A stretch of DNA of 64,000 nucleotides from contig JACVTC010000012.1 in the NCBI GenBank assembly GCA_016946835.1, forward strand, positions 265,001 through 329,000. The letters are read 5' to 3'. Below the pieces are notes generated by a model. That model saw only the letters and a program-made list of their open reading frames with translations. It was not told the DNA's origin and searched no databases. This document shows, one piece after another, positions 2,132 through 63,831 of this stretch. Source of the DNA: Neocallimastix lanati (nom. inval.). Its lineage: Eukaryota > Neocallimastigomycota > Neocallimastigomycetes > Neocallimastigales > Neocallimastigaceae. Made by a program: the position numbers and the translations under genes. The stretch's first letter is position 1; each line of letters starts with the position of its first letter.

Positions 2132-2400
2132 TTTAACCTTTTTTTTTTTATTAAAAAATTATATTTATAATATAATTTTAATAGTGAAAGAAAGTGTAAA
2201 ATTTTAATATTTTGATTCTAACAATAATTTTATATTATATTTAAAAAAAAAAAAAAATTGATAATACATTTTGTAATTCATGTATTGGCCAATAATTAAT
2301 GAGTTATATTAATTTTTAATGTATTTAATATTCATCTTATACATTACGTATTATTGGTTTAGAATAATTTAATTATATATTCTAAAATATTTATTTAAAT

Positions 2401-8012: not shown

Positions 8013-9500
8013 TCAGATTTTAAAAAGTAAATTATTTCTGAATCTATCCATTGATGTACTATTTAGGTATTTTGTGAATCCATCTGCTAGATTGTTTTCG
8101 GACTTAATATATTTTAATTTTATTGTACCTTTACTTATTAAATCTCTTACGTGGTGATATTTAGTATCAATATGTTTAGATTTTGCGTTAATTGATCTAT
8201 TTTGGCAATTGTAGATAGCGGCCTTATTATCAATATTTATAGTCACTGATTTTATTTTGATATTTAATTCTTTAAAAATGTTCATATACCACAAACTGTG
8301 TTTTGCACAATCACTAACACTTATATATTCCGATTCCGCCGTAGAAGTAGCAACGGCATGTTGCAATCAACTTCAGGTTTCGTAATGATGATCGATGACT
8401 CTTAGTTGGTAAGTCATCGATCATCATTACGAAACCTGAAGTTGATTTCCTTGTCTCTTCGTCCCCGGCATAATCAGCATCAGCAAAAACTCTTAAAGTT
8501 TTTTTATTTGAAAATTTTATACCATAATTCAAAGAACCCTTTAGATATCTAAAAATTTTCTTCACATTGTGCCAATCTTCTATTGTTGGGTTTTTACTTT
8601 TTCTTGAGGCTCTGACTTCTGAGAATATTATATCTGGTCTTGTACATACAGCCAAATATAGTAAGTTTCCTATGGCACTTCTATAACTTGTCTTATTGAA
8701 AGCTTTGCATCTATTTTTAATTTCATTTACAGGTTTTAAATTTCTTATTGGTTTAGTATTTAATAAATTGTATCTTTCAATTAATTCCTTTATATATCCT
8801 TTTTGGTGTAGGATATATCCGTTCTTTTGTTTTTCGAATTTTATGCTGATTATGAAATCAACTTCGCCTATATCTTTAATTTTGTAAATATTTTTTATCT
8901 GATCTTTCACATCTAATATTTCATTTTTCTTACCTATTATTAGAATGTCATCTACATACACTGTTAATATACAAATAATTTCTTTGTTTTTATTTTCTTT
9001 TATGTACACACAGGGTTCGCTAATGAGCTTTTAAAATTTATTTTTATTAATGTTTCATTTAATTTTTCGTTCCACTGGCGGCCTGCTTGTTCAAGACCAT
9101 AAAGTGCCTTCTTTAATTTCCAAAAGCCTTTGTTTTCCGGTGAGTATCCTTCCGGTAGTTTCATATAAATTTCTATCTCTAGGTCAGCATTTAAGTATGC
9201 TGCGTTGATGTCAATTTGAAATATTTCAAAATTTCTTTGTACAGTTAGGGCAACTATAACTCTAAGAGATTCTTGTTTTAATGTTGGCGAGAAAGTGTTT
9301 GAATAATCAATACTAAAACGTTGTGAAAACTCTTTCGCAACTAACCTGGCCTTTCGTTTTGTTATATTTCCATTTTCATCACGTTTACATTTGAATACCC
9401 ATTTGCATGATATAAGGTTGGGCTTTTTGGGAATATTGTTTATTGTTTGAAAAACATTTAAATTCTTCATATTGTTTATTTCTACTTTTATTGCATTCAT
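8013..9500 (-). pseudogene. Copia reverse transcriptase - RNase H, broken
   Basis: RVT_2-type domain. The segment 9000-9500 holds the RT start (CKWVFKCKRDENGNITKRKA, then ARLVAKEF and QIDINAAYLNA). The segment 8314-9009 holds the active-site motif TVYVDDILIIG and the CTRPDIIFS block, then RNase H up to STSGF. The segment 8013-8366 holds the rest of RNase H (STAESEYIS, KHIDTKYHHVRDLI, NNLADGFTKYL). The frame breaks near 9005 and at the inverted duplication at 8365-8447. Catalytic residues are still readable but no continuous protein can be made. Confidence 0.85.
8365..8447. repeat. Perfect 36-bp inverted repeat inside the RNase H region
   Basis: The arm at 8365-8400 is the exact reverse complement of 8412-8447, separated by 11 bp. 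It replaces the codons between the STSGF...LPT block and the QHAVATSTAESEY block that are present in the related elements. Confidence 0.95.
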
Positions 9501-9868
9501 CTATTCATCTTTATCTGGTAGGTTGAATATATCTTTATAATTTTGTGGTTCACTAAAATTTTTATTTATTGTCTTTTCTAATTTTGTTTTTTTTTGATTG
9601 TGGTATTAACTGTATTATCTTCATTTTTTCTTTTATTTCTTCTATCATTATCATAGATTGTGAGAAAACTAGTTGATGAGGTTGATTCAGAGTTTGTTAT
9701 GTTTTTATTTTTATCGTTATCACTGTGTTCTGTAATAGTTTGATCTGAATAAGTATTACTAACCTTATTGATTTTATTATTGAGTTCTATTGGTGATAAG
9801 GTGATTCTATTCTATAAATTGGAGTTATTGAAATTGTTAGTACTAAAATACTTACCGCTCCCCCTGAT
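9501..9868 (-). pseudogene. Integrase-RT linker of the copia element (low complexity)
   Basis: Minus-strand frames give Asn/Lys/Ser-rich sequence with stops, in the same place as the Asn-rich linkers of the two other copia elements in the window. Confidence 0.55.
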
Positions 9869-10852
9869 TTAGGAAGAGGGAATAAAATTCAAAAAAGTAT
9901 TAGGGATACGAGAGATAAGGTTAGAATCGGCGGGATTATCTTCGAAGAATTCTACAGATCTTGAGAAAATAATTTTGTTCGTTTCTAAATTAAGGATTTT
10001 ATAAGCTGAGGAGAGAGGATGGTAGCCAAGGAAAATACCGGGAAGAGCATTATTTTCAAATTTATTCCTGAAACATTTTGGTACGTAAAAGAAAACTTTG
10101 CAACCAAAGACCTTAAATTTTGAATAATCAACTTTTGACTTGAAAAGAACTTCAAAAGGAATTTTATTATTAATGCCTGAATGTGGGATTCTGTTATGTA
10201 TATAATTTGTAGTGTCAACGGCATATTCCCAAAATTGGTGACTAATCCTTGCGTCATTTAAAAGAGCTTTGGCAGAAGAAATTAAAGTTCCATTAAACCT
10301 TTTAGCACGTCCATTTTGTTGAGGATTGTGAGGTACTGTAAATTGCTGAGTGATTCCATGATTAATACAGAAAGATTTGAATCTGCTATTTTTAAATTCA
10401 GTACCATTGTCAGAAAATAATAGATTTGTTGAACATATTAGTAATGGATTTTGCCCAAACAAGAAATTTATCGAATACATCGCTTTTACTTTCGAGAAAG
10501 AATACCCAACCGAAACGAGAGAAATCATCAAGAATAGTTAAAAAATATAAATTGCCGAAGAGAGATTCGTTGATAGGACCTACTAAATCCATATGCACTA
10601 ATTCGAAAGTAGACTTTGCTTTGTTTTCTGATTTTTTAAAACTGAAGTTTTTCATTTTTGAATTGGAACAAACAGGACACTTTGATTTAATATTAATCTG
10701 AAGCAATTTATTTTTAAAGTGATTAATATTAAAATGTCCAAGGCGGCGATGCCAAAGGTTGATTTTGTCTTTTCTGGAGAGATTAGATAAACTGTATACT
10801 GAAGGAAAGTTTCTAATTTTATTAAAAACTTATGGGGTAAGTAGAAATCCAA
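9869..10852 (-). pseudogene. Copia pre-integrase zinc domain and integrase, broken
   Basis: The N-terminal zinc domain is readable (LWHRRLGHFN...CPVCSNSKMK, an HHCC pattern). It is followed by the integrase core: first Asp in ELVHMDLVGP, second in SDNGTEFKN, and Glu in a degraded GRAKRFNGT where relatives have GRAERF or GRVERL. The C-terminal part (DYSKFKVFGCKVFFYVP, PGIFLGY) is intact. A frame change lies near 10410-10530. The Glu-to-Lys change in the D,D35E triad would by itself abolish integration. Confidence 0.8.
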
Positions 10853-20078: not shown

Positions 20079-21117
20079 TTATAAATACATAAATTCAGAT
20101 AATCTTAGCCACATAATTAGTATTTTATAAATTGGGGATAATCCTTTTTCATTTTTATTAATTTTTTCATGTGGAATAATTATTGTCCATTGTAAATTTT
20201 TAAGTGTTTCCATTTCATAGTCAGGAATAGTTTCATTTGTCCAAAACCAAGCATAATTTGTTCTATAAAAATGAATTGGAAGAATGGACTTATTCCCTTC
20301 TAATATAAATACTTTATTATCTTTTCGGTTTACTAAATTATGATTCTTTAATTCTTCATAATTTTCTGGTGATAATTCATTAACAATACCCATAGTATTA
20401 TTAATTTCATTTTTCCTTTTTCTTTCGTAAGTTGTAATTATTGCATTTTTTGCAATACTTAATCTTGTTGAATAATTATCATTTCCGCTTGTAGATTTAT
20501 GAATTCCAACTACATGTAATGAATTGTTAATTAGTGGAGATCCAGAAGATGCAAAATAGGTGGAGCAATTATGAACAATATTACATCCTGATATAGATTT
20601 AATTATTCCGATTGAAGCCGATAATTTTTGTATATTTTCATTTTCTTGTAAGTTTTTATCTTTTGGTTCATTAGCTGGATATTGAATAACCATGATAGGG
20701 TCAGTTATTACACATTCTCTATCATCTGCAGTAAGGAAATACGGAGTAATTCTATTAAAAACTTCATTTTTTAATTCAATAAAAGTAACATCAATAAATT
20801 CATCAGTAAAAATAAACTTTATATCATTTGATTTTATTGAAATATTTTCTTTTCTTTCTTCAAAATATATTTCAAAATTTTGACTTTCTCCATTTATTAC
20901 ATGATTATTTGTCATTAATCCATATATTATTATGTCATTATATTGAAGTTTAACAAAGAAACCAGTTCCAAACATTTTTTTTCCATGTTTAATAAGTTTT
21001 ATAATACATACAGATTTATTTGAAATATCTTTGATATCATCAAAACTTGGAATTGGTTGTAAAACTTTTTTTGGATCATTTTCATTATATATATAATTCT
21101 CATCAATACTTTTATTT
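20079..21117 (-). other. Last exon of gene B: trypsin-like serine protease module
   Basis: The chymotrypsin-fold triad is visible: His in GLMTNNHVING (about residue 1812), Asp in EFIDVTFIEL (about 1849) and Ser in TYFASSGSPLINN (about 1931). The SGSP motif corresponds to GNSGG/SP of DegP-like and other non-digestive family members, and LHVVGIHKS follows at the usual distance. The intron before it is phase 2 (exon ends AAAAA, donor GTAAGT; acceptor TAG at 21118-21120), the only non-phase-1 module junction in the gene. This suggests that the protease, or the ankyrin-protease pair, was joined separately. A C-terminal extension of about 100 residues after the protease core is unrecognised. Confidence 0.8.
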
Positions 21118-21323
21118 CTATATTAATTATATTATGGAATTATTTAATAATTATATTTATATAATTATTAATTTATAAAATTAAAGTTTTTTATTAATCA
21201 AATTTCAAAGATATATATAATTATTGAAAAGTATATATATATATATATAAAATATGTATATGTATTTTAATTATAAAGTAATTATTTCGAATAAAATGAA
21301 TTTTAATTTTTAAATTTAAATAT

Positions 21324-21359
<36 letters not shown>

Positions 21360-24349
21360 TTTTAAATATATATATATAAAAGATGTAGTTTATAAATTTA
21401 AATAAATATCAAGACTTACTTTTTTGTTATTGGTTTTCCGTTTTCTTCATGGTAAATTTCTTTTTGATTTAATCCTTTATTACCAGAATCATTATCAAAG
21501 GATTCATCATCATCATATGTAATATTTAATGTTGAATTTTTTATTTCATCTTCATTTATAATATTTTTTTCTCTTAATAAATTTAGAATTTTACTATTAT
21601 TAAGATATTCAGCAAAAGCTTTTGCAATGATTAATGGAGTATTTTTGATTTTATCTTTAACATTAATATTGTCATTTTTTTCGATTAATTTAGAAATAAC
21701 CTCTTCTTTAATAAAATAACATGCAACCAGTAATGGTGACATATTATATTCCCCTTTATAATTAATATCTGCATTATTATCAATAAGTTTTTCAAATATA
21801 TTTATGCTATTTTTATTTACTAATTTGGATGCCATAATTAATAGAGAATTTTGATATTTATTTTTTATGTTAATATCTGTACCATATTCAAATATTTCAT
21901 TTATTGTATTAACATTATTATTTTTACATGCATCTATTAAAATTTTACATTCATAATCAAATAGTATATTCTCTATATTCTTGTAATCTTCATTTTTAGC
22001 AATATACTTGTTGATTTTTTTTAATTCATTCTTTTCAATTTTAACGCCTTTTTCTAATATATATTTTACAACATTTTCCATCTTGTTTTTACAAGCAATG
22101 TATAATGGTGTTTTATTATTTTTTGCTATTTTTATATTTAAATCTGCACCCTTATCAATTAAATATTTAATTATAGGGAATTTTTGCTTATATAATGCAC
22201 AAATTAAAGGAGTTTCACCTTTATTGTTTTTTACATTTATTGTCGCATTATTTTCTACTAAATATTTTACTATTGGAAGATCACAATATTGAACTGCAAT
22301 TAATAATGGTGTATTGCCAGCATTATCGCTTACATTTAATTCTGATCCATTGTCAACTAAATATTTTATTACAGAATAGTAATTTTTTGTGCATTCTGTT
22401 ATTAAAATATCATTTAAATTTTTTCCATTGTCGATTAATTTTTTAATAGAGTCCATTTCTTTATTTTCTTCTATTTTTTTTTCCATTAATTTGTCTATTT
22501 TTTCTTTAAGTTCACTTTCATTTTTATAAATTATTTTAATATTTTCATTATATTTAATAAATAACTCAATTAATTCATTCATTATCCCAAAAATATTATC
22601 AATATCAGTTTCATTTATTTCTAATGTAATATTGTTTTTATGAGCATATTCTATTAACTTTTCTGCCATATTTAAATCATTATAATACCTAATTGCGATT
22701 AAAAATGGATAATATCCATAATTATTTTTCTCATTTAAATTTAATTTAATATCATTTTCATTCGCATATTGAATAATTAATTTAACTATTTCATTATTGT
22801 TTTTTAACAACGCTAGTAAAATTGGATAATTTCCATCTTTATATTTTTCATTTAAATTTAATTTATTATTTTTATCTTTTTCAGTTTCTATAATTGATTT
22901 AATTTCATCTATATTATTATTTTCTATTGAATTTTTAAATTTAATTTTTATTTTTTCTTCTATTTCTTTTTTAGGCTCAATATAATTTATTTCCTTTTCT
23001 TTATATGTTTGATAAAATGTACGTCCATCTTCAATTTTAAAAAGTGTTGCAATAGCCCAATATCCTGCTTCTGAATCTATCACCTTTATATAATCTCTAA
23101 CTCCATTAAAAATTTTTCCAATTTTTGCACTATGCTTTCTTAATGGATGCCAATATGCAGAAAGTATATCTGTATTTTTATTAGTAAATATACTAATAAA
23201 AATACCTGATCCTGAATTTGTTTTTCCTGTAAAAGTCCAATTATCATTAGGGTCATATATAAAATCTGTCTTACTTATAATTTCATTTTTGAAAATTTCC
23301 ACTGCTTTTTCTATGGTATATATTTTTATATTATCTTTTTCATTATTTTAAAATATATATAAATATTATATTAAAAAAATTAGTTTTATTAAAATTAAAA
23401 ATATATATTATATTAATTAATATTTAAAACCATACCATTATTATCTGTTTGATATATTCTTAAATAACATCCAACAATAAATTCATTCATTAGAGGTTCA
23501 TTATTATTAATATTTACAGAAATATTTTCTGTTGTTGTGTATAATCCGTGAACTTTAATTAATTTCGATGAACCTATGAAAGTCATAATATTAGAAATAT
23601 TAAATTTTTAATTAATATATATATATATATTTAATTAAAAATTGTATAAATTACAAACATAATATATATTAAATTTTTAAATAAAATACTTTTTATATTA
23701 TAAGATCTGTAATCATTTTTTTTTCTCACTGCAAAAACATAACTAATGTATGGATTCCCAAAATCTTTTTTATTTTTATTTTCAATATAATCTAATGTTA
23801 ATTCAAACGTATTATTATTTTTTGATTCAACAGTAAAATTCCTTTAATGAATTATAATTATATATTATTTTTATGTATATATATAAATTAATATTTTTAT
23901 AATAAAATGGCAGTTTTAAATTTTAATAAAAAAAAAAAAAAAAAAAATTAATATATATAAATACCAATCATAACATCCAAGATTAAAATCATTATCTGAT
24001 ATGCTTTTATTATTTAAATTTAAACTATATTCAAAGAAACTTTCTGCATATAAAGCAATTCCATAATCATTTATTATATGATTTCTTATTATATTAATAT
24101 AATTTTCTTAAATAAAAAATAAAAAAATTATATAAAATTAATATAATTTCATTTAAAATTTTAGAAAAAATAAATTTTATTTTATGTATTAATAAAATAT
24201 AATACCATATGAAAAATCTTGGGTTATTTTATTATATAATTAATAAAAAAATATTATTTTATTATAATTAGTTTATATAAATTAATAAATAAATTATAAA
24301 TATAATTTTTTATTATCAATATTTTAATATAAATAAAATCTATTTTAGT

Positions 24350-24392
<43 letters not shown>

Positions 24393-26054
24393 CAACATAC
24401 CTTTAATATAATAAATTCGCATATATATTCCACCAATTATCTCTGAATGGTTTTTATTAAATTCTTTAAAATAATCTTTTATACTATTTAAATTAATAAA
24501 TTTATCTATAGTATATTTTTTTATTGTCTTTATAGATGAATCAGAGTCATTTGTAGTATCAGTATTAAAATATAAAAAATTATTTGTTGCTATTAATATA
24601 TATTTAATTTAAATTATTAATAATAATTACAAAAACAATATTATCTCTTTTTTATTGGTAAATATTATTATTAATTTTTTTTTATCTTTATAATATTTAT
24701 TATAAACAAACCTTTAGTTTTAAAGAATGAATAATCTTTACAATTTCTAATGTAAAATACTAAGTTTGTTTTTATAATTTTATTTAACAAATTCATATTT
24801 TCTAATTGAAATGAAAGATACTGTTGTCCTTCAATTAATTTTTTTTCAATTGATAAATTCCTAAATATTTATAAGAAAACAATTATAAATGTAAACTTTA
24901 TTAAACTCAAATAAAATTTTATTTCATTTATATTTATATATTACCAATTATTGATGCCATCATTGAAATCATTATTGGAAATGGTATAATTATTATTAAG
25001 TTTAAAAATTTCATTAAAACTTAAATTAATTTCATTATACTGCTCTTTCATAATTTCTTTTTCATTTTTATCATCAATAAAACTTTCAATCTTGATTTTA
25101 AATTCATCTATTATATAAATATATTAAAATTTATAGAAATTGATAATTTTAATTAAAAATGAATAAAAGAAATAACTATTATTAAAATAAAATAAAAAAA
25201 ATTTTTTTTTTACTTTCATTATTATTTTTATATCTACGAAGATAAATCCCTACAGTTAACTTATTATCTTTTAAAATCTTTTCATTTAATTTATTCACTT
25301 CAATTAAATCAGTTATTTCATGATAATAATCGATATTATTAAATCTGAAAGTTGCTTTTATATTTTTAATTAATATTTATTGACAGATTTAATATTATTT
25401 TATTATATAGTAACAATTAATAATAAATTATATAAAAAATAAAAATTCAAAAATTTTCATATTATTATATTATTATTAAATTTTTATAAAAATTAACTTT
25501 TGCGTACTATTTTTGGCTTCATAACTTTCATATGATAAAGAACCATCATATTTTCGTATATATAAAACAAATACAGTAGGAACATTAAGATTAAACTGAT
25601 TATCTTCATTATATTTATAATTATTGTCAGAACTATAATATTTTAATGCATTATAATTTTCTAAAGCCATTGAAACATATTCATCTTTTTTATCGGAGCC
25701 ATGAGGATATAAAGTTAAATTCCTGTATAATAAAGTTTTTTTTTTTTAATTTATGAATATACAACATATATTTATTTCGTATTTTTAATTATAATAATAT
25801 TACCAATTAAGGCCACATAACTTAAAATTTTCTTTTGTATTTTCATTTTTTAATCCTTTCCAGTTTTCTATATCCCATTCAAAAATATCTTCAGATAGTA
25901 AATTCTCATCTGATAATTGGAAATTAACTTTAAATATTGTCATAATAATTTTAGTGTCTAACAATATTTTAATATAAATAATTTATATGTAATTAGAAAT
26001 AGAATTCGATTTTTTTTTTTTTTTTTAAAAAAAAAAATTACTTATATTTCATTG

Positions 26055-26088
<34 letters not shown>

Positions 26089-26509
26089 CAAAAGATCTCT
26101 TTTTTTTAATACTATTTTGAGATGATTTTATTGAATATATTTCTTTATCATTGGTATTTTCTTTATACGTTTTACAATATGAATATCCAAATTCATTATC
26201 AGCTTCATTAATAGCTATAGCCCAATATCCTGCATCCGATATTTCATTTTTAACATCAGTTTTAATACCATTAATTTTTTGGCCAATAATTCCTTCATGC
26301 CTTCTTAATGGATGCCAATATCCTGATATCATATAACTATTTTGATTAATATGAATGAATATTCCTGTTCTAGAATCTTTTTTTAAAATTAATGTCCATT
26401 TTTCTTTAGGATAAAATGTTATATTTTTTTCATTTAATTTTTCTTCAAAAACTTCCATTGCTTTTTCAGCTGTTAATGTTTTGATATTATCTTTAATGAT
26501 TTTAATTAA

Positions 26510-26559
<50 letters not shown>

Positions 26560-27213
26560 ATTTTTAATCAAAACCTATAAATTATATTATTTAGTAATAT
26601 TAATTTATTATTATTATTATTATTATTTTAAATCTTACTATTAATATCAGTTTGATATATTCTTATATAAACACCAACAATTAAATTATTTATTTTCAAT
26701 TTATTATCATTATCAGAACTTATAAACGATTTTTCAATAATTTCTTTATTTTCATCAGAAAGTTTTATAAATTTAGTTGAACCTAAATGAAATCGATATA
26801 ATAATAATAATATATTATGTAAAAATAAACATTAATAAAGAAATCTTTTTTATTTTTTATTTTTTCTATTTTTCTGAATTTTAATGTAATTATTATATTA
26901 ATTTTAATGAATTTATAGTTATTTTTGATTTATTGCATTCTATTATATTTTTATTTATATAATTTTATAATTTTTAATTATTTATTCAACAAATACTTTT
27001 TATTTCATATATTTGGTAAGCATCTATTTTTCTTAATATAAAAACGTAATTTATATAAGGATCACCACAATTATTATTTTTTTTGCCAAGATATTTTAAT
27101 TTTAAATCATATCTATTATTTATCAATTCAACATCAAAATCCCTTATCCAAAATTCAGTTATATATATTAAACAATAAAATTAATAAATAATTTTTATTA
27201 TATTTTTTATTAT

Positions 27214-27256
<43 letters not shown>

Positions 27257-29415
27257 AATGTAAAAATCAATACCATGAATATTCTCCTATTGTATAATTA
27301 ATACTGTTATAAACTCCATTACTATTAAAAGTACTTTCAAAATAATCTTCAGCGTGTGTAACAACACTATAATCATTGATTATATTATTTCTAATTTTAT
27401 TATAATAATTCTCTATTATAATAAAAAAATTAAAATTAATATAATATTTTACATCATATTATTAATATTTTTATATTATTACAAATATTTTACCTTGGGA
27501 AAAATCTTATATAATTAGGAATTTATTATTATTATTATTATTATTATAATTATAATTATTATTAGTTGTAGTATGAGAATAAGTATGATAATCATTATTA
27601 GTATCAGTATTAGTATTTTTATTATTAGTTTTATTAATTTATAATAATGAATTACGATTAAAATATTTAATACAAAAATAATTTTATACCTCTTTTATTA
27701 TAAATACATAAATATATTCCAACAATAATTGAATCAAAACTTTTAAATCTTTTATTTAATTCTTCGATTTTTATAAATTTATTCATTGTAAAATCTTCAA
27801 CTAAATTAATGGACATATTATTATTGCTCTCACCAAAATAAACGAAATTTTCAGTTGCTAAAAATATAAAATACAATAGTTTTATCAAAATATAATAATT
27901 TATATTAAATTAAAAATGATTATTAAAAAAAAAAAAAAAAAAAAAAATAAACATTTATAATAAAATATTAAAAATCCAAATATTAACCTTTCGTTTTAAA
28001 AAATGAATAATCTATGTTGTTTCGAATAAAAAAAACTAAATTTGTTTTTATATAGTTAATTTCATTATTATTATTATTATTATTATTACTAGTATTATTA
28101 TTATTTAATAATTGAAATGAAATATAAAATTCATTATTTAATTTTTCTTTTTTTACAACAAATTCCCTATTATAATTTTTTTTATATAAAAAAAATAATA
28201 ATTAATTTAATAATTAAAATAAATTATTAATTTTATAATAAATATTTATCTAATATTTATTTTACCAATCCCAATTTTCCGATGAATTAGTTATAGAATC
28301 TTTTTTTGAAATTTCATCAAATTTAATTTCGAATTCCTTGTAGTACTTTTTAATAATAAAATTATCATTTTTGTTATTTATATAACTTGCAAGTTTATTA
28401 CTAAACAAAACTTTATAGATATAATGACATAAATATTTTATTTTAAAAAATATGTAATAATTTTAAGTAAAATATTTTAACTTTTATAATTTTATAATTT
28501 CTTTATTATTTAATTTATACCTTCATCATTATTTTTATATCTAAAGAGATATACACCCACAGTTAATTTATTATTCTTTAATAATTCCTCAATTTTCTTT
28601 ATTTCTACTAATTGATGTACTCCATAATAATAATTATTATTGTCATACGTAAAACTTGCTTTCAATATTTAAAAATTTTGAATATTATAATTATTACGTA
28701 CCCATTTATTTTTAGTTATATTAGTTTATAGTTATAATTTTATAATAATTATAATAATTGAAATAATTTAATATTTAAAAAATAATTATAATAAATACTT
28801 TGTTTTGCCTCATATTTGGAAAAATCATCATTTTTTCGTAAATACAAAATAAACCTGGTAAACACATTAATATCATATTGATTATCATCATTATATTTAT
28901 AATTGTCATCATAGTTGTAATAGTTTAATGCATCAAAATTTTGTAAAAATAATGAAATGTATTCATTATTTACGTCAGAACCATTAGGAAATAAAATTAA
29001 ATTCCTATATAAATATTATTGTTTTCATTATTATTATTATTATTAATTAATAGTTTTTTTTTAAAAAATTATCATTAACATTAATATTATTTATAAATTT
29101 CAAAAAAAAATTAATAATAATATTATTTATTATATTAATTTTATAATAGTAAAATTACCAATTAAGTCCACATAATTCAAAAGTTTCACTTTCATTTTCA
29201 TTCTTTAAATCTTTCCAATTTTCAATATTCCATTCAAAAATATCTTCATTTATTAAATCTTCATTTGTTATTTTAAATGATTTTTTAATTTCTTCCATAA
29301 ATGTTTTTATTTCCCCTACAAATCATATTTTAAAATCAAATTTATATTATATAATTATTTTATTAATAAATTAAATTATAATAATTAAATAAAATGAATT
29401 ACCATCAGTATCCAT
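20079..29415 (-). CDS. Gene B: (3xMATH + unknown domain)x2 - ankyrin repeats - trypsin-like protease
   Basis: A 24-exon gene reconstructed from a 13-nt first exon (ATG at 29413-29415) to TAA at 20079-20081. The exons sum to 6258 nt, exactly 2086 codons (about 2085 aa), which supports the model. Approximate layout: MATH-like domains 1-3 at residues 1-482, unknown domain 483-616, MATH-like 4-6 at 617-1101, unknown domain 1102-1225, ankyrin repeats 1235-1700, chymotrypsin-fold protease about 1780-2000. MATH hallmarks include DIFEWNIENWK, CGLNW split by an intron, LILFPNG and YISLFL. No transmembrane segment or signal peptide is seen, so it is probably cytosolic. The gene lies downstream of gene A in the same orientation. 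Joining units 3 and 4 is inferred from donor and acceptor sites of matching phase with only 131 nt between. Function is not known: inference is ligand-controlled proteolysis. Confidence 0.75.
21420..23334 (-). other. Gene B exon 23: unknown C-terminal domain copy 2 plus ankyrin repeats
   Basis: A single 1915-nt exon. The first part (23334 to about 22990) is the fourth copy in the window of the unrecognised domain (AYWHPLRKHSAKIG, SEAGYWAIAT). After a charged linker, roughly ten to eleven ankyrin repeats follow. The clearest are NAGNTPLLIAVQYCDLPIVK, NNKGETPLICALYKQKFPII and NNKTPLYIACKNKMENVVKY, with the canonical TPL..A and ..V.YL positions. The repeats end in an acidic linker (YDDDESFDNDSG) before the protease exon. 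No start codon is needed here: the first codons are read through from the preceding exon. Confidence 0.85.
21420..25957 (-). other. Unit 4 (gene B): exon map of the second MATH triplet
   Basis: Exons: 25804-25957, 25508-25722, 25214-25354 (MATH 4); 24945-25107, 24712-24860, 24401-24589 (MATH 5); microexon 24206-24217, then 23965-24106, 23690-23841, 23436-23573 (MATH 6); 21420-23334. The first exon uses the acceptor TTAG at 25958-25961, joined to the phase-1 donor GTATTT at the end of unit 3 (26083-26088). MATH 4 is canonical (DIFEWDIENWKGLKNEN, LTLYPHGSDKKDEYVSMALE). MATH 5 and 6 are divergent and are assigned by parallel exon structure and the IYxRIY terminal strand. Confidence 0.75.
26089..29415 (-). 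other. Unit 3 (gene B): exon map of the first MATH triplet and unknown domain
   Basis: Exons: 29403-29415 (start), 29159-29315, 28799-29004, 28521-28658 (MATH 1); 28266-28410, 27988-28166, 27690-27857 (MATH 2); microexon 27494-27505, then 27274-27412, 26997-27142, 26639-26782 (MATH 3); 26089-26490 (unknown domain; MISGYWHPLRRHEGIIGQKI, SDAGYWAIAI). The first exon encodes only MDTD plus one base. The intron between MATH 3 and the last exon holds a run of roughly 45 A. An in-frame stop occurs at 26042 if the last donor is not used. Confidence 0.75.
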
Positions 29416-30332: not shown

Positions 30333-32012
30333 TTACTCCTTAATTGTATTATAAAAAGTATGACCATTTTCAATTCTATGATGTATAGCGATAGCCCAAT
30401 ATCCTGGTTCTGATTCAACTATTTTTATATAATTTTTAACACTTTTAACAATTTCTCCAACTATTCCACAATGTTTTCTAAGTGGATGCCAATATGCGGA
30501 AAGCATATTTTTATCATCAAAGATACTGATAAAAATACCTGATCCTGAATTTGTCTTTGCTGTATAAGTCCACTTATCATTAGGGTTATATATAAAATCT
30601 GTGTTACATATTATTTTACTTTTGAAAATTTCCATTGCTTTTTGTGCGGTATATGTTTTAATATTATCTATAATTAAAATAATTAGTAGAAAATAAAAAT
30701 AATAATAAAATTATCATTATAAAAATTCTTACCATTATTATCCGTTTGATATATTCTTAGGTAAATGCCAATAATTAAATTGCTTATTTCTAATTTACTA
30801 TTATAATTGGAATTTATAAATGAATTTATAATAATTGTATTATTTTCCTTATCGATTTTAATTAAATCAGTTGAATCTTAATATTAATATTATAATATAT
30901 ATTATTTAGAAAAAAAAATAATAATAATAATGATAATATTTTAATTAAATGTTTTTTTATGGTATATCAATTAATAATAATTTTTATATTATGTATAAAT
31001 ATATATTTTTTTTTTTTTAAAAAAAAAAAGTATTGCTTTTTATATATATTACTTTCAATTTTATAAATTTCATAATTTTCTGATTTTCTTAATACAACAA
31101 CATAATTAATATAGGGATCACCATAATTAGAATTTTGATCATTTTTACCAGTATATTTTAAAGTTAAATAATAAGATTTATCTTCTTTTAATGTGACATC
31201 AAAATGCCTATTTTAATTTCATAATTATAAATAAATATTTAATTATTATTTTAATTTTAATTACGTTTATATATTTTAAATAATTTTATATAAAATTTTT
31301 ATAATTTAAATTATATAAATAATTGAAATAATTGGAATAGTACCATGAATAATTTCCAAGGTTAAAATCAATATTAGAATATATTCCATTATTGTTAAAG
31401 CTACTTTCAAAGTAATTTTCCGCATGAAGAGTAATACCATAATCATTTTTTATATTATTTCTCATAATATTAATATAATTATCTAGCATAAAAAAAAAAA
31501 TTTTTTTATTTTATTTAAATCAATATAATATTTAATATTTATTAAATTAATATATCTTTATTTCAATAATTGATTATACCTTTCGCTAAATCTTTATTAA
31601 AGAGTTTTTTTTATATATAATTTTTATTATCATAATTATTGTTATTTTTGATGTTTGCATTATTTTTGTTTTTAAAATAATTATAATTTTTTAAATAATA
31701 AAACGAATGAAATATATTAAAGATATATTATTATAAATATTTTAATATCTAATTAAATATTTATATAATTATACCATTATTATTATAAATGCATATATAT
31801 ACTCCAGCAATTATTGAATTGCAATTACTGAATAATTTTGATAATTCTTCTATTGTTAAAAACTTATCCATTGTAAAATTATCAATAAATTTAATAGATA
31901 AGTAATTGTCGTTATTATTAGTCTCACCAAAATATATAAAATTATTGGTTCCTATTAATATATGATTAAGAAATTATTAATTAATATTAAAAATTAAATA
32001 AAAAAAAAACGA

Positions 32013-32046
<34 letters not shown>

Positions 32047-32874
32047 CTTAAATAGATTATTTTTTTTTATTAAATAATCTTTATTGTTTAAATAAATTAT
32101 ATTATTAAACAATATAATTATATATATATATATATATATATAAATTAAAAAATTAAAATAAAATTGATAAACTGACCTTTCGCTTTGAAATAAGAATAAT
32201 CTGTATCATTTCTAATATAAAATACTAAATTCGTTTTAATTGCTTTACCTATATTCTTTAGATTTGAAATCTTAAATGAAATAAAATATTTATCATTTAT
32301 TGATTTTTTCTGAATTGATAAATTCCTAAAATTATGTTTTAAGTAAAATTACCTATTAATTAAATTATATAATTTTTTTAAATAAATATAATTATTTTTA
32401 TATATCATACCAATTATTTTGATTATCGTTAAAATCTTCATCTTTAATTATATAATCATTGTTATATTTTAAAATATCATGAAGACTAACATTAAATTCC
32501 TTATAATATTGTTGTAAAATCATTTTTTCATTTTTATTATCAATGTAACTTTTAATTTGTTTTCTAAATTCATCTAATATTATATATATATTAAATATAA
32601 TATATATATATATATATTATATTTTTGAAATTTGAATAATTTAGTGAATTTCAAATTAACTTATTATAAATAAATTAATAATAATTGATTATAAAAATAT
32701 ATATATATATTTTATTTAAAAAAAATTTATACCTTCATTGGTATTTTTATATCTACAAATATAAACACCAACAACTAACTTATTATCTTCTAATAATTGT
32801 TCATTAATTTTTTTTATTTCAGCTAATTCTTGTATTCCATGATAATAATTAATATTATCATACTTGAAACTTGC

Positions 32875-32909
<35 letters not shown>

Positions 32910-33552
32910 ATATATATATTATTAAATTTATATAATTATTAAATTTATATAATAAATATTATAAAAATAATAATGACTAATTAATATACATAAAGTAGCT
33001 TTTATATATATATATATATATATATAAATAGAAAAATAAAATTTATAATAAAAATAAAGTATAAAAGTATAAACATGTACTTTCTTTTGCTTCATATTTT
33101 GATAAATCATTACAGTGTCGTACATATAAGACATACTTTACGTATACGTTTATATTAAATTGGTTATCATCATTATATTCATATTTATCATCAGAGTTAT
33201 AATATTTTAAAGCATCAAAGTTTTCTAAAAATAACGAAATATATTTTTTTCCTTTATTAGGAAATAAAATTAAGTTCCTATAATAATAATTAATATATTA
33301 TTATTATTATTATTATAATTACTATTAATTAAATTAATTTTATTTTATTTTTATTATTATTATTAATTTTAAATTATATTATGATATGATATAATTACCA
33401 ATTAAGTCCACATAAATTAAACAATTCACTTTTTTTTTCTGGAATTAATCCGTTCCAATTTTCAATATTCCATTCAAAAATGTCTTCTTGTAATAATTTA
33501 TTACTTTGAAAATAAAATCTATTTTTAATTTCATTCATAAACAAATATTTTT
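30333..33552 (-). other. Unit 2 (gene A): exon map
   Basis: Exons: 33399-33552, 33081-33277, 32733-32873 (MATH 4); 32411-32573, 32177-32325, 31775-31951 (MATH 5); microexon 31580-31591, then 31344-31482, 31053-31207, 30733-30876 (MATH 6); 30333-30667 (unknown domain, LSAYWHPLRKHCGIVG, SEPGYWAIAI). MATH 4 reads DIFEWNIENWNGLIPEKK, LILFPNKGKKYISLFLENFD. The intron at 32874-33080 contains T and TA runs. Confidence 0.75.
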
Positions 33553-36500
33553 CTTTATATAAAAAAAAAAAAAATTTAGATTAATTCTTTTTTATACATA
33601 AGAAAATATTGACATATTTATAATTTTTTTTACCATTTGAGTCCTCCGGTTCACAAATATAATTATCCAATGAATTTATTTCATTATTATTAACAATATA
33701 ATCTTTTAATGTTCTATAATAGGTACATCCATATTGATTATCGGCTGTATTAATAGCTATAGCCCAATATCCTGCATCCGATATTTCATTTTTAACATCA
33801 GTTTTAATACCATTAATTTTTTGACCAATGATTCCTTCATGTCTTCTTAATGGATGCCAATATCCTGATATCATATAAGTATTTTGATTAATATGAATAA
33901 ATATTCCTGATCCAGAATTTGTTTTTAAAATTATGGTCCATTTTTCTTTAGGATAAAATATTATGTTTTTTTCTTTTAATTTATTTTCAAAAATTTCCAT
34001 TGCTTTTTCAGCGGTATATGCTTTAATATTATCTGTAGTTGTAATTTTAATAATAATAATATTATTAATAATAATAAATTAGTAAAACTATAACTTCAAT
34101 TATTAATAATATAAATATATATTTAAATCTTACTATTATTATCAGTTTGATATATTCTTATATATACCCCAACCATTAAATCATTTACTTTCAATTTATC
34201 ATCATTTTTATAATTTATAAATGATTTTTCAATAATTTTATTATTTTCCTTTGAAAGTTTTATAATTTCACTTGAATCTAAATGAATGAATTATATGTTT
34301 AAATATTATAATATTATATTATTTTATAATATTTTATTAATATTATATAAATACTTTCTTTTTTTTTTTTTTTTTTAATACAAAGTTGAATGTAATATAA
34401 AATTTAAATATTAAGTATATTATATTATTATTATATATATATTGAATTGTTAAATACTTTTTATTTTATATACAGTATAGTCATCCAATTTTCTTAATAT
34501 AAATATATAATTAATATAGGGATCACCACAATTAGTATTTTGATTATTTTTACTAATATAAGTCAAAACTAAATCATAAGAATTATCTTCGTTTAACGTA
34601 ACATTTAAATTCCTTTTTTTTTTTAAAAAAAAAAAAAATTTAAAAGATTTTATATACATCAATTATTTAAATATAGAAGAAATTTAGTGAACTTTAAATT
34701 TTTTCATTTTTTGTTATTATTAAAATTTTGAAGTAATCATAACAATAATATTTAGAATAATTTAATAATTGGAATAATAATAATAATAATACCATATATA
34801 ATTTCCAATTTTAAAATCAATATCAGAATAAATTCCATTATTATTGAAATTACTTTCAAAGTAATTTTCAGCATGTATAGTAATACCGTTATCATTTATT
34901 ATATTGTTTCGTATGATATTAAGATAATTTTCTTTAATAAAAATATTTATTTTAATTAATATAAAATTTTCATATATTTCAATCATAAACATTTTATTTA
35001 ATATATTAATAAAAATCTTTATACCTTTTGGTAAGCCTTTATATTAATATATATTATTATTATTATTGTTATTGTTATATATTATAAAATATATATTTAT
35101 ATATTATTTATTAAAAGTAGATATTATATAATATATAATAATTCATTAAATAGATATTAATCTTTTACCATTATTATTATAAATGCATATATATACTCCA
35201 GCAATAACTGAATCGTAATTTTCATAAGTCTTTATCAAATTATCTATTTTTATAAATTTATCCATTGTAAAATCTTCTCTATAATTTATTAATGAATTAT
35301 TGTTATTTAAACTATTATTCCCAAAATAAACAAAATTATCAGTTTCTATTTAAAATTGAAACACAAAATTCATAATATGATAAATATTAATAAAAAATTT
35401 TTATTAATTTATATTAACCTATTCAATAAATAGTTCAATTTTTAATACATTATTAAATTATTACTATACGAACCATTTGTTTTAAAATATGAATAATCTT
35501 TATTATTTCTAATAAAAAATACTAAATTTGTTTTAATTACTTCATCATTATTAGATTTATTTAATAATTTAAATGAAATGTACGATTCATTATTTATTAT
35601 TTCTTTTTTTAAAGAAAAATTCCTAAAATTATAAAATAAATTTAGTATTATATATTATTACACAAATTTTAATTTTATTAAATATAAAATAAAATAAAAT
35701 AAAAAGAAAAAAAAAAAAAAAAAAACTTTTATTTTATATTTATAATACCAATTATAATTATAGTCTTCGAAAGTTTCAAATAATATTTCAGAATTATTAT
35801 TTAATTTTGATAAATCCTCAAACTTTATTTCAAATTCTCTATAATCTTGATGAAGAATGTATATTTCATTTTTATTATTTATGTAACTTTTAATTTTATT
35901 AATAAATTCCTCTATAATATGAAACATTAAAAAAAATATATTATAAAAAAAATAATTATATAAATTTAAATAAAAATTTAAGTATTAAAATTATAAATAG
36001 AAATTTTATAAATATAAACCGTAATTAAATTTATACCTTCATCATTATTTTCATATCTGCATAGATAAATACCAACAACTAATTTTGTATTATTCTTTAA
36101 TAATTTTTCGTTAAATTTCTTAATGTCAATAAATTCCTGTATACCATGATAATAATTATAATTATCAAACTTGAAACTTGCTTTTGAAAATTTATATAAA
36201 AGTTTTGTTTATATTATTATTATTTATATAAAAATATTATTTAGTTTTTATTATAATTTTGTATATACCATTAATAAGAAATTTACTATTTTTAAGTTTA
36301 TATTATTACAAATAATGAAGAAATATAATATTTGAATTTTTGAAAAAAAAAAAAAAAAAAAAAGAAAATAAAATTAAAAATATATACTTTCTTTTGCTTC
36401 AAAATTTGAAATATTATCATATTCTCTTATATAAAAAGCAAATTTTGTGTCAACATTTATATTGAATTGGTTATCATTATTGTATTTATAATCATCATCA

Positions 36501-37124
36501 AAATTATAATATCTTAAAGCATTAAAGTTTTCTAAAAATAATGAAACAAATTCTTTTTTTGTCTTAAAACCACTAGGATATAATATTATATTCCTATGTA
36601 TGATTTACATAAATAATATTAGTATGATTATCAATAACTATTTTTATTATTGTTTTAAATAATATTTATTATTATTCTTTTATTTATTCTTATTATTATA
36701 TATTATTATATTATTATTATTACTATTACTATGTTACTATGCTTTATTATTAAAATTATTATTATTATTATTATGTTTTATTATTATATATTATTATATT
36801 ATTATTATTACTATGTTTTTATTATTATTATATTTAGTAGTAGTAGTAGTATTTGCATTAGTATATTAAGTATATTCATAATGAAATTACCAATTTAGAC
36901 CACATAATTTAAAAATATCACTTTTATTTTCATTTGATAATTCTTTCCAGTTTTCAATATTCCATTCATAAATATCTTCATAAAGTAAATCCTCATCTGG
37001 GAAATCAAATTTCTCCTTAAGCTTTTTTACAAAATCTTCTTTTTCTATTATTTAAAAATTTTAGAATTTAATATTATTTTATATCAGCTATTGCTACAAT
37101 ATAATATTTACCGTTTATATTCAT
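30333..37124 (-). CDS. Gene A: (3xMATH + unknown domain)x2, no protease
   Basis: A 23-exon gene reconstructed from ATG at 37122-37124 (13-nt first exon encoding MNIN) to TAA at 30333-30335. The exons sum to 3621 nt, exactly 1207 codons (about 1206 aa). Layout: MATH-like 1-3 at residues 1-485, unknown domain 486-618, MATH-like 4-6 at 619-1095, unknown domain 1096-1206. It parallels gene B exon by exon, including the 13-nt first exon and 12-nt microexons, but stops after the second unknown domain (FYNTIKE) where gene B continues into ankyrin repeats. No membrane or secretion signal is seen. MATH domains bind peptides, often in ubiquitin or TRAF-like pathways; the role here is unknown. The alternative of two separate genes is disfavoured: only 81 nt separate the last usable donor of unit 1 from the first exon of unit 2. 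Confidence 0.75.
33634..37124 (-). other. Unit 1 (gene A): exon map
   Basis: Exons: 37112-37124 (start), 36891-37044, 36388-36593, 36037-36180 (MATH 1); 35749-35911, 35474-35622, 35169-35345 (MATH 2); microexon 35025-35036, then 34793-34931, 34458-34612, 34134-34277 (MATH 3); 33634-34032 (unknown domain, MISGYWHPLRRHEGIIGQKI, SDAGYWAIAI). The final donor GTAAAA (33628-33633) is phase 1 and joins the acceptor AAG at 33553-33555. Without splicing the frame would stop at 33581. Confidence 0.75.
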
Positions 37125-38860: not shown

Positions 38861-40282
38861 ATGGATGATCAATTAGAAATAAGTGAAACTAATAAAGAAA
38901 AAAACCAAATCATTGTAAATAGAAAATATAAATTTAATTTATGGTATATAACGAATAATACAAAAATATTCCAATGCACTAAATGTAAAACAGTTAAAAA
39001 ATGTAAATTTTACATTATTCTAAATGATAATAATAAAGTAATAAAATATGAAAACAAACATACTCATCCAGGAAAAGAATATGATGCATCTGTATCAATA
39101 GTAAAACATAAAATGAAAAATGAAATAAGAAAAACCTCAATCCCATTTGATATAAATCCAAAACATATATAATGAAATATTTGAAGAAATTGGATTGATA
39201 TGCCCTGAATATATTTCAATTAAATCCCAAATATCAAGATATATTAAAAAACAACTACCTCCTGATATATATCAAAATTTAATGAAATTCCAGATAAATC
39301 TGAATATTATATAAACGAAAGAGATGAAAATTTTATGATATACAAAAATTCTAATATTATAATTTTTCAATCATCATTTCCCATTCCAAACAGAATTGTC
39401 TATAAAATACAACGAACATATGTTTGCTGATGGTACATTTTATATTACACCAATATTTGGTTATCAAGTGTTTATAACAAGAGTATTTGCTCCAGAAATA
39501 AATAGTTTTTATACTACATCACTATCTATATTAAATAATAAAGAACAAGCAACCTATGAATTGTTATTTGAAGAATTAAAAAAGAATGAAAGTAATTATA
39601 ATAATAATATTATAAGTAATTATAATAATAATATTATAGTTATACCAAAAATTTTGCATTGTGATTTTGAAAAAAGTATATCCAATGTTTCCATTAAAAT
39701 ATTTCATAATATTACTATTAAATATTGTGTATGGCATTATAAAAGATCGTTTGAAGTTCAAAAAAATAAATTATGTTATAATGAAGTTGAAAATAATCAT
39801 AAAATTTATTTGTTATATAAAGCTATTACAAATTTTCCTATTATAAATCCTGAATATATATTTGATATTTATAATTATATTAAAATTATACGTCAAATAT
39901 ATAATTATTTCAATTTTTTAAATTTTTTGGAATATTTTAATAAGACTTATTTATATAAATATGATATTCAATATTGGAATTATTATAACGATATAAACCA
40001 CATAACAAATAATGCTTCAGTATCTTTTAACAATTACTTAAAAAAATTGTTTTACAAAAAACCTTCTTTTTATGAATTGATTTATCATTTAAAAAGAGAA
40101 GAATCTTTATCTTACAATAATTACAAAAGGAAAATTGAAGGAGTTTGGAAAAAAAAAAAGAATATTAACAAAAACTGATGAAATCAATGATTTCATTAAA
40201 AAATACAAAATAAAAGGAATCCGATTAATTGATAAAAAATGTGAAAAAATGATATCATTGATTTATGGTATAAATGTTTAAT
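38861..40282 (+). pseudogene. MULE transposase, left copy, frameshifted
   Basis: The N-terminus (38861-39172; starts MDDQLEISETNKEKNQIIVN) carries a FLYWCH/WRKY-like zinc domain (FQCTKCKTVKKCKF...KHTH). The frame breaks at 39165-39175, where the right copy has two more bases. The core continues at 39396-40178 with the first catalytic Asp in MFADGTFYITP, the second in ILHCDFEKSISN, and the CVWHYKRS block typical of MULE transposases (C..H after the second Asp). A further frame change follows near 40160 in an A run. Probably inactive. Confidence 0.8.
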
Positions 40283-45677: not shown

Positions 45678-45726
45678 ATAAAAAAATATTTCTTTTAATA
45701 AAATTTTTTTTTTATTTATTAATATT

Positions 45727-48689
45727 TTGAAACCTGAAGAATACTCAGAAGGAATTGTTGTTCGATTACCAGTAAAAATTAATGATTATGAATTTAATGC
45801 AGACTTTAGAATTATTGAAAAGGAAGACTCTTTTTATGATATGTTAATAAACTTTAAAACTCAAATCGATCATTGTTTATTTATTCATCCAACCTTAAAC
45901 AGTCTATGTAAACTTTTTTCAGAAAGTGAATACGAAGAAATAGCAAAAATAAATAATCAATATTATGATGAAGAAAATATAATCTGCACTATTAGAAAAG
46001 TTAAAGAAACGAATAATGAAAAGGAAATTATAAAGGAATTAACTCCAATGGAATTTATTGAAAGTGATGAATTTTTAAATACCTTAAATAAAGATTATAA
46101 AGAACAAATTATTAAAATTCTCAAAGAAATGATTGACATAGTTGCTACTTCAACGGAAGAACTAACTCCTTCTAAACTTTCACCACATAAGATAGGTTTA
46201 AAAGCTAATGCAAAGCCAGTAAAATTAAGAGGTTATAGGTTAACTAAATTAAAATCAGATATCTTAAAGAACTTACAAAGCTTATTAAGAAAGGACTGAT
46301 AGAACCATCCTGTTCAGAATGGTCATCTCCAGTAGTACTTATTCTTAAACATAATAGAAAGTGGCGCTTGTGCATTGACTACTGAAAAGTCAATGATATG
46401 ACTGAAAAAGATTCTTATTCAGTTCCATATATAGATGAAATTTTTGATAGTCTCGGAGGAGCTAAAATATTTACAAACTCTTGATTTATTTTCTGGTTTT
46501 AACCAAATCTTAATGGATGAAGAAAGCGTTGAAGTAACCACTTTTACTACTAAGTTTGGAAATTATCAATTTAAGGTTATGCCTTTTGGACTTACTGGAG
46601 CTCCCTCAACCTTCCAAAGAGAAATGAATAAAATTTTATTCCCTTTTATTGGTGAATTTGTTTACGTATTTATTGATGATGTTTTAATATATTCCAAAAG
46701 TATTGAAGAACATTTAGTCCATATTAAACAAGTCTTAGAAGTATTTAAAGAAAACAAGTTAAAAATTAATATTGAAAAATGCCATTTTCTTCAAACTGAA
46801 GTTGATGTATTAGGTCGCAAACTTAATACTCAAGGATTAAGTCCCATGGAAAGCAAAATAACAGCTATTAAGAAGTGGGAAGCCCCTTCATCACTTCATG
46901 AATTAAGATCATTCCTTGGAGCAGTAGGATATTATCGTGATTTTATTCTTAAATATGCTCAAATTACCTCACCTTTATGTAAATTATTGAAAAAAAAATA
47001 CTAAATATATATGGAATAAAGAACAACAAGAAAGTTTTGAACTTCTAAAAGAAAAATTAATTAATGCACCTATTCTAAAATTTCCGTTATTTGACAAACC
47101 TTTTATTATTAGAACAGACGCTTCGTATAATGGAATTGGTGGAGTTCTTTTACAAAAAGAAGAAGAAACCGGTAAGGAGCATCCAATACACTTTATAAGT
47201 AGAAGTTTGAAGAAAGCTGAAAAGAATTATGGTATCACAGATTTGGAAGGAACAGCTTTATTCTATTGTATGACTAAATTTAAATCTTTTATTGAAGGAA
47301 ACCCATTACCTACAACTATTTACACAGATCATAAACCATTAATTGGTTTATTTAAGAATAAAGAACCTTTGAATGCAAGGTGTCTAACCGCTAGTATGCT
47401 TGGAATTAATATAAAATATGAATCAGGCAAAAAGAATGTGTTAGCTGATGTTCTTTCAAGAATGAAAAGTAAGGAAGAGAGAAAGATATTATTAACAAAA
47501 ATTACTAATGGAAATAATGAAGAATTATTATCTAAAGTTATAAAGGAATTTATTAATGAAAAGTTTACTGTTATTGATGGTGAAGATTACTTTATCGACA
47601 ACGGAAATTATAGAAAATTAATAACGGATGAAAATGAAAAATTTAAATTAATTTTAGAAGCTCATAATATTGGCCACGAAGGATATTACAAAACATATCA
47701 AAGACTTAAGAAAAACTTTTATTGGAATCATATGATTAAAGATATCAAAAGAATTGTTAGTAATTGTGAAAAATGCCAGTTAAATCGTCCTCAACCATAT
47801 CCAGAACCAACTGAAAACCATCCAACTAAAGTAGAGGGTCCCTTTGTGCATTTAGGATTAGATATTATAGGACCGTTACCAAAAACAAGAAATAATAATC
47901 AATATATTATAGTAACTGTTGATTACTTTATCAAATGGGTTGAAGCCGAACCCACTGAAAAACATAACTTCCTCTGAGATAATTAAATTTTTAATAAACG
48001 TTTTTGCAAGACATGGTGTGCCTCAAGTTATTACTAATGATAATGGAGTCCAATTCACTTCTGATATGACTAAAATCTTTCTTGATCTTTATGATGTATA
48101 TATTAAATTTGTAGCTACTTACCACCATGAATCAAATGGTCTTACTGAAAATCGAAACAAAGAAATTGGAAAATTACTTCGTTTATTAGGAAGGAAAAAT
48201 CAAGATTGGGATGAAGTTTTACCTTCTGCTCTATGGGCACTTCGAACTACCAAAAACACAGCTACTGGACATTCTAGTTTTGAATTAGTATATGGAAGAG
48301 AAGACCAACAGCCTTATGATATAGCCATAAGAACAATTGAAAATACAGGTAAATCATATGATGAAATTTTAATGGAAAAATTTGTTCGTCATTATCAATG
48401 GACTAGAGAAGCATGCGAAAATGTGAAGAATGCTAACAAGTATTGGGCAACAAGACGAGAAGAACAAATAAGTATGAAAAAAGGAAAAGAATTAAAGGTT
48501 GGTGATCTTGTTCTTGTTAGAAACTTTAGCCGCACTAAGCTAGAACCATATTACAATGGACCATTTAAAATTTTAAAAATTCAATTCAATACAGCAACTT
48601 TAATCGATCAGAAAACTAAAAAACAACTAGACAGGAATATTCATTTTAAAAATTTAGTAAAGTTTAACTCCGCTTACAGAGAAGCTTAA
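45727..48689 (+). pseudogene. Gypsy pol (protease end, RT, RNase H, integrase) with frameshifts
   Basis: Frames: 45727-46299 (protease end and RT start; no canonical ATG), 46283-46480 (KGLIEPSCSEWSSPVVLILK, with TGA where relatives have Arg in DYRKVN), 46435-47004 (RT core; MPFGLTGAPSTFQREMN, active site YVFIDDVLIYSKS), about 47000-47520 (RNase H, IRTDASYNGIGGVLLQ, YTDHKPL), 47520-47977 (integrase zinc domain H..H..CEKCQLNR, first Asp LGLDIIGPLP) and 47919-48689 (second Asp ITNDNGVQF, Glu in SNGLTENRNKEIG). Breaks lie at about 46290, 46390, 46470, 46995 (an A run) and 47970. All catalytic residues of RT and integrase survive. It ends KFNSAYREA. Confidence 0.9.
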
Positions 48690-51860: not shown

Positions 51861-52357
51861 AATTTGAAACTAAAATATTATTAATATAAAAAATATAAAT
51901 AAATTAAAATAATAATAAAAAATTAATTATATGTATTAAATAAAATTTTGAATAAATCACATTATGCAATATATCAAATATATTAAAATGAAACTATAAA
52001 ACTAATCAATGAATAAAAAAATAAAAAATCTAATCAAATAATAATCACCTTTTATTTAATCAAAATTAATAATAAATTAAATAATATAAATGCCTTATTT
52101 ATTAAAGTTTGGTATTACAACACTAAATGAGATAAAAATTGTAACAAATTAATTAAATCAAATTTAAGTAAAAATTAAAATGAGAATCTTTAATATAACA
52201 AATTAATACTAATAAATTAATAAAAATTAACAGAATTAAATATTATAATATTTTTTTTTAAAAAACTACTAAAATATTTTTATTAATTGAGATATTAAAA
52301 AATAGTTATAATTAATTTAAAACAATAATAAAAATTTAAGATTTCAAAGTACTCGAA

Positions 52358-63746: not shown

Positions 63747-63831
63747 TTTAGACTGAATATTGCTATTATTTCTATATAAAAAAAATTATTTTATTTTTAT
63801 TGTTTACAACACTACAAATATTCTTACATAT

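Follow-up and report, generated by a model that had tools for sequence, protein, structure and literature searches.

A predicted gene of an anaerobic gut fungus joining MATH units, lactococcin-972-like domains, ankyrin repeats and a V8-like serine protease

Background

Little is known about the immunity of early-diverging fungi. HET-Q2, a serine protease of other fungi, cuts a gasdermin, and the sections of PMC10197012 dealing with HET-Q2-like proteins present them as multidomain and abundant, with ankyrin, TPR or WD40 repeats often adjoining the protease. Here a gene combining ankyrin repeats with a different serine protease, gene A, is described from Neocallimastix lanati. It was found in a window of 64,000 nucleotides (C24:265001-329000, the whole stretch analysed) and is compared with the genome of the same organism (199 Mb, 762 contigs) and with the described systems.

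Other reports also bear on this gene. Ankyrin expansions in Neocallimastigomycota are noted in passages of PMC8778642. Bacteriocins similar to lactococcin 972 were called by antiSMASH in N. californiae and C. churrovis, according to the relevant part of PMC8106346, and the lactococcin-972-like domains of Trichomonas carry two conserved His, 2 of 6 having a predicted signal peptide, in the portion of PMC12612818 devoted to them. PMC9815663, which treats the effector domains of fungal NOD-like receptors, contains neither trypsin nor peptidase nor MATH as a whole word. Within the excerpts of the open-access literature searched, no description was found of an architecture joining MATH and lactococcin-like modules to ankyrins and a protease.

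Results

Architecture of gene A

Gene A lies on the minus strand, and its predicted architecture is three MATH units and one lactococcin-972-like domain, the same set a second time, then ankyrin repeats and a C-terminal serine protease (Table 1). The splice search was begun at the ATG at 29415 proposed by an earlier sequence-only reading, the higher-scoring of two ATGs tried, and the model was hand-corrected at one acceptor and one false intron. It comprises 22 exons and 6234 nucleotides encoding 2077 amino acids (aa), with a single terminal stop at 20079. The earlier reading had proposed 24 exons and 2085 aa for a protein of MATH domains, ankyrin repeats and a protease; the combination was confirmed, with the same ATG and stop and by profile matches, a second allele and the intron phases, while the exon number and the length were revised.

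In order, the introns have phase 1, three sets of 2,1,1, phase 1 again, three more sets of 2,1,1 and a last phase 2, so that there are three exons per MATH unit and a phase-1 start for each lactococcin-like domain. Contig C747 holds another copy of this region, and the exon model mapped onto it retains 42 of 42 splice sites. This copy, taken here as the other allele of gene A, reads 2089 aa with a stop at the end only and with its own in-frame indels in exons (3, 18, 21, 3 and 3 bases). A splice search on C747 alone ran past the stop and gave 33 exons and 2347 aa. Because the phases follow the modules and both the 42 splice sites and the frame are kept in C747, the architecture is not put down to chance. 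One open frame (21416-23347, 643 aa) runs through both the second lactococcin-like domain and the ankyrins. By hydropathy neither a signal peptide nor a membrane span was detected, the N-terminus being hydrophilic and the highest KD19 value 1.25.

Table 1. Positions in the window of the modules of gene A and of its neighbour, gene B
Feature	Position	Strand	Basis
Gene A start and MATH unit 1 (type 1)	28521..29415	-	exons 29415-29403, 29315-29159, 29004-28799, 28658-28521; Pfam MATH_2 E 2.6e-12
MATH unit 2 (type 2, divergent)	27690..28410	-	exons 28410-28266, 28166-27988, 27857-27690; hhalign to type 1 prob 91, E 1.1e-6
MATH unit 3 (type 3, divergent)	26639..27412	-	exons 27412-27274, 27142-26997, 26782-26639; hhalign to type 1 prob 92, E 7.2e-7; to type 2 prob 95, E 1.5e-8
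Lactococcin-972-like domain, copy 1 of gene A (UD1), one phase 1-1 exon	26089..26490	-	PF09683 19.0-20.6 bits (cut-off 22); nine-member profile E 0.0031
MATH unit 4 (type 1)	25214..25957	-	exons 25957-25804, 25722-25508, 25354-25214; 56% identity with unit 1
MATH unit 5 (type 2)	24401..25107	-	exons 25107-24945, 24860-24712, 24589-24401; 44% identity with unit 2
MATH unit 6 (type 3)	23436..24106	-	exons 24106-23965, 23841-23690, 23573-23436; 44% identity with unit 3
Lactococcin-972-like domain, copy 2 of gene A (UD2), exon shared with ankyrins	22997..23334	-	PF09683 E 0.0028, 18.7 bits; nine-member profile E 0.00075
Ankyrin repeats and acidic linker	21420..22996	-	Pfam Ank_2 E 8.1e-42, 5 stretches; Ank_4 7 stretches
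V8/Spl-like serine protease and conserved C-terminal tail, stop at 20079	20079..21117	-	Trypsin_2 E 4.1e-12; family profile against PDB; triad His1804, Asp1841, Ser1923
Gene B: paralog, same MATH and lactococcin-like layout, stop after second lactococcin-like domain	about 30333..37124	-	splice model of 21 exons (approximate) and open frames
Lactococcin-972-like domain, copy 1 of gene B	33704..34033	-	PF09683 22.3 bits with frame neighbours (cut-off 22); nine-member profile E 0.00049
Lactococcin-972-like domain, copy 2 of gene B, C-terminal	30336..30668	-	nine-member profile E 0.00038, best of 412 window ORFs; Pfam weak in frame, 14.3 bits

The six MATH domains claimed by the earlier reading were borne out at type 1 by the Pfam profile MATH_2, which matched 3 of the 9 units scanned (six of gene A and three of gene B; best 47.6 bits, cut-off 32). 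Types 2 and 3 are linked to MATH solely through their hhalign comparison with type 1. Three-member profiles of types 1 and 2 gave no match in the PDB to E 1, and that of type 3 gave five matches at chance level (E 0.67 or worse), with no MATH protein among them. Weak MATH-like exon matches were also seen away from the listed protease exons, on contigs C742, C39, C56, C756, C2, C212 and C1.

The ankyrin-protease family

The ankyrin repeats and the trypsin-like protease with His, Asp and Ser in order, both named in the earlier reading, were found again by Pfam, the triad residues being placed by family alignment. That reading had overlooked that the genome holds dozens of such ankyrin-protease halves. 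The protease exon gave 62 matches at E <= 0.001, pieces of one gene and alleles included, with 13 of the 62 on contig C379 and 7 on C88. Of 40 fetched pieces in which the protease was found again, 37 have ankyrin matches upstream of it, equal to 35 of 38 distinct places; this count leaves out L047 and L053, where the protease was not re-found by the script (L053 being the same place as L028). The pieces with no ankyrin match upstream of the protease are L033, L041 and L045, the last largely masked. L053 (C57:1645628-1653600) is a single open frame of 2500 aa with 57 ankyrin-profile matches and a C-terminal trypsin-like core, and ends before the C-terminal tail. Since one open frame holds both modules there, their join in the family is not an artefact of modelling. 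Self-cleavage at the acidic linker before the protease was considered and dropped; this single-frame paralog has no long acidic linker.

The family profile of the protease retrieved 28 PDB sequences to E 0.01, headed by SplB (1.4e-10) and V8 protease (5e-10) and then by glutamyl endopeptidase. Conservation was counted over 26 full-length open reading frames (ORFs), 20 partial ones being left out: His and Asp of the triad are each present in 26 of 26 and Ser in 25 of 26, and the V8 pocket positions Thr190 and His213 in 26 of 26 each. These two pocket residues would favour Glu at P1. The ~100 aa that close the protease exon (window 20079-20400) form a conserved tail with LFYRTN-x-x-WY and a final WL at >=80% over the same members; no Pfam match above cut-off was obtained for it in the three members tried. 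Outside the genome, the protease alignment gave 33 pattern matches and 0 confirmed relatives in viral contigs, no match in phages and 9 weak matches in plasmids (7 from Rhizobium, 21.8-27.2% identity).

MATH was seen at 2 of the 11 loci with several kb of upstream sequence, gene A and L052, and not at L039-L046 and L051, some of them partly masked. Contig C741 contains MATH-like exons, ankyrins and a protease. The own MATH exon profile gave E 3.8e-5 on one of its exons, and of two hand-joined units one matched MATH_2 (E 0.0036, 18 bits, cut-off 32) and the other did not. Judging from these matches, C741 probably carries a second, diverged MATH-ankyrin-protease gene, which the earlier reading had also missed.

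The lactococcin-972-like domain

The earlier reading had noticed two copies of an unknown domain in gene A; both copies stand, and what had been missed is their likeness to lactococcin 972. All four copies of the window, two in gene A and two in gene B, matched PF09683 (lactococcin_972, best E 3.6e-4). Its gathering score of 22 was passed by one of the four (copy 1 of gene B), the rest being below it or not listed. A six-frame scan of the genome with PF09683 gave 7 matches up to E 10, among them copy 1 of gene B and its allele at 22.3 bits and copy 1 of gene A and its allele just under the cut-off; copy 2 of each gene was not listed. Further matches outside genes A and B are C566:22121-22243 (27 bits), C323:504200-504277 (22 bits) and C212:1287280 (19.8 bits). 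In a direct sequence search at E <= 0.001, all 8 matches to the domain belonged to gene A, gene B or their alleles.

Stronger support than that from PF09683 came from a profile of nine bacterial members, built from the pBL1 type member, Streptococcus, Enterococcus, Lactobacillus, two alike Macrococcus and three alike Bacillaceae sequences. As a hidden Markov model it ranked the four domain exons 1 to 4 among 412 window ORFs (E 0.0004-0.003, the next at 0.87). With hhalign the same nine members gave a probability of 81%, E 1.2e-5 and a score of 32.1, whereas none of 200 shuffles scored above 21.2. Over 13 aligned sequences S-x-Y-x-H, a second H and an A are invariant and a G is near-invariant. 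Searches of viral contigs gave 109 pattern matches with the lactococcin-like alignment and 12 with the Bacillaceae lactococcin alignment, each with 0 confirmed relatives, and a PDB chain fragment had no match in plasmids. A bacteriocin would be a small secreted peptide with a signal sequence, whereas this domain lies within a large protein with a hydrophilic N-terminus.

Gene B and sequence exchange

Gene B, which the earlier reading had missed, adjoins gene A, repeats its N-terminal half and stops before the ankyrins. Its lactococcin-like domains have 52% and 67% identity with copy 2 of gene A. At the sites around copy 1 (UD1) that differ between A and B in the window, the C747 allele of gene A has the A state at 72, the B state at 15 and neither at 9. 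Nine of the B-type sites form an unbroken row in UD1 (0 of 100000 shuffles). From this pattern the tract looks like gene conversion, as where binding modules are exchanged.

Other features of the window and genome

The fungal dockerin domain CBM_10 gave 150 scored matches in this genome (1440 candidates); an abundance of such dockerins is characteristic of anaerobic gut fungi and makes a place in Neocallimastigomycota very likely. The window also contains genes of long terminal repeat retrotransposons at 8314-10537 (-), 45682-48689 (+), 52340-56484 (+) and 58438-63785 (-), called from one scanned frame per stretch by matches to RVT_2, RNase H and integrase zinc binding, rve and copia gag. A frame at 39363-40178 (+) resembles a MULE transposase (E 1.2e-4, below cut-off). 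An exon at 1649-2158 (-), for which Pfam gave no match, is presumably the start of a glycyl-tRNA synthetase.

Discussion

Possible function of gene A

That gene A encodes a cytosolic sensor-protease of this gut fungus is, in our judgement, about evenly balanced. The MATH and lactococcin-like modules would form a ligand-binding face and the ankyrins a scaffold holding the protease or its target; binding of the ligand would release or concentrate the protease, and the enzyme would then cleave a partner protein. Since the V8 pocket residues Thr190 and His213 are conserved, the cut may fall after an acidic residue. Gene B would be the binding half alone and could serve as regulator, decoy or sequence donor. 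The features that speak for a sensor-protease are the architecture with its intron phases, the MATH and lactococcin-like matches, the intact triad, SplB, V8 and glutamyl endopeptidase as nearest solved structures, the ankyrin-protease family, the probable second gene on C741, the conversion-like tract between A and B and, by analogy, the fungal receptors that combine ankyrins with a serine protease. The earlier reading had also suggested a sensor with a proteolytic effector, and this fits the many binding modules, the lack of a detected signal peptide or membrane span, the conserved protease, the large family and the fungal analogues; its further suggestion of immunity or allorecognition stays conjectural.

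Several points weigh against a sensor-protease. No nucleotide-binding switch of the NLR kind came up, neither NACHT nor NB-ARC being among the families that Pfam listed for the exons of ankyrins and protease, for the lactococcin-like domains and for the MATH units. A free N-terminus is normally required by a V8-like pocket; a protease fused at the C-terminal end would have one only after being cut. Between the alleles of gene A dN/dS is 0.84 (95.5 nonsynonymous and 24.5 synonymous differences); once UD1 is excluded, the value cannot be told from 1 (p 0.79). MATH and protease show no significant difference in their nonsynonymous to synonymous counts (p 0.21).

The best surviving alternative, which we consider doubtful yet by far not negligible, is a regulatory protease targeted to its substrate, in which MATH would bind the cleavage target and the whole protein would serve housekeeping signalling or turnover, not the sensing of intruders. 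Known MATH domains, as in USP7 or SPOP, bind short peptides, and dozens of ankyrin-protease paralogs would suit many substrates. However, an expansion within the lineage such as that on C379 and C88 is unusual for housekeeping, as are lactococcin-like modules, and MATH was seen at just two of the 11 loci with several kb upstream.

An extended form of the sensor-protease, in our opinion unlikely, would have a bacterial lipid-II-binding bacteriocin fold taken into the cytosol to act, with the MATH arrays, as the recognition part of an immune receptor firing a V8-like protease, with the adjacent effector-less twin exchanging sequence with it.

Quite unlikely is an antibacterial weapon, with the lactococcin-like domains as bacteriocins embedded in a precursor. 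The similarity to lactococcin 972 would agree with it, as would the related sequences noted in the parts of PMC8106346 and PMC12612818 on Neocallimastix and Caecomyces and on Trichomonas, respectively. Against this, hydropathy gives no signal peptide and the copies of gene A sit between MATH exons or in frame with the ankyrins.

Chance likeness to lactococcin 972, the domain being an unrelated fungal fold, is highly unlikely in our estimate. It would account for the Pfam scores that are mostly under the cut-off; for the NCBIfam lactococcin model, which matched 1 of 4 copies (E 0.015, 15.6 bits, cut-off 32.1); for the PDB search, where chain 9hkj of the lactococcin 972 family came second behind malate dehydrogenase (E 0.87, not significant alone); and for hhalign with five near-identical Bacillaceae members (probability 7.6%, 1 of 100 shuffles scoring higher). 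It is countered by the nine-member comparison, by the first four ranks among the window ORFs and by the invariant residues. A mistaken joining of a MATH-lactococcin-ankyrin gene to a separate protease gene, which the last intron (302 bp, the longest of 21) might suggest, is very improbable given the ankyrins upstream of the protease across the family, the single frame on C57, though this copy ends before the tail, and the splice sites kept in C747.

Comparison with known systems

The nearest solved structures to the protease are the V8, glutamyl endopeptidase and Spl proteases (E 1e-10 to 1e-8), which have Thr190 and His213 in common with it. These V8 and Spl enzymes are secreted and bacterial, whereas the protease of gene A is C-terminal to ankyrins and has an extra conserved tail. 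With the lactococcin 972 bacteriocins the domain shares the core S-x-Y-x-H, the second His, the G and the A; the bacterial members are small peptides with a leader, in contrast to the copies of gene A, which belong to a large protein where hydropathy shows no signal peptide.

Sequences resembling lactococcin 972 in gut fungi (PMC8106346) and in Trichomonas (PMC12612818) would belong to the same domain family and come from eukaryotes living among bacteria. In the sections of these papers that deal with them they are described as antimicrobial peptides, whereas the domains of gene A are found in a MATH-ankyrin-protease protein. This raises the question, directly testable, of whether some of the gut-fungal lactococcin-972-like "bacteriocins" are domains of large intracellular proteins.

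With the HET-Q2-like (Q2L) receptors of PMC10197012 the likeness is a serine protease next to ankyrin repeats. As those receptors are characterized in the relevant sections, their protease is of the subtilisin-like S8 type, whereas that of gene A is a V8/Spl-like S1 protease (Trypsin_2) and not an S8 one; the same sections make no mention of MATH or lactococcin-like modules, both of which are predicted in gene A. The gut fungus has a large ankyrin-protease family, one branch of which carries these two kinds of module. If gene A were a receptor, a lineage distant from Podospora would have arrived at the plan of ankyrins plus serine protease by using a different protease.

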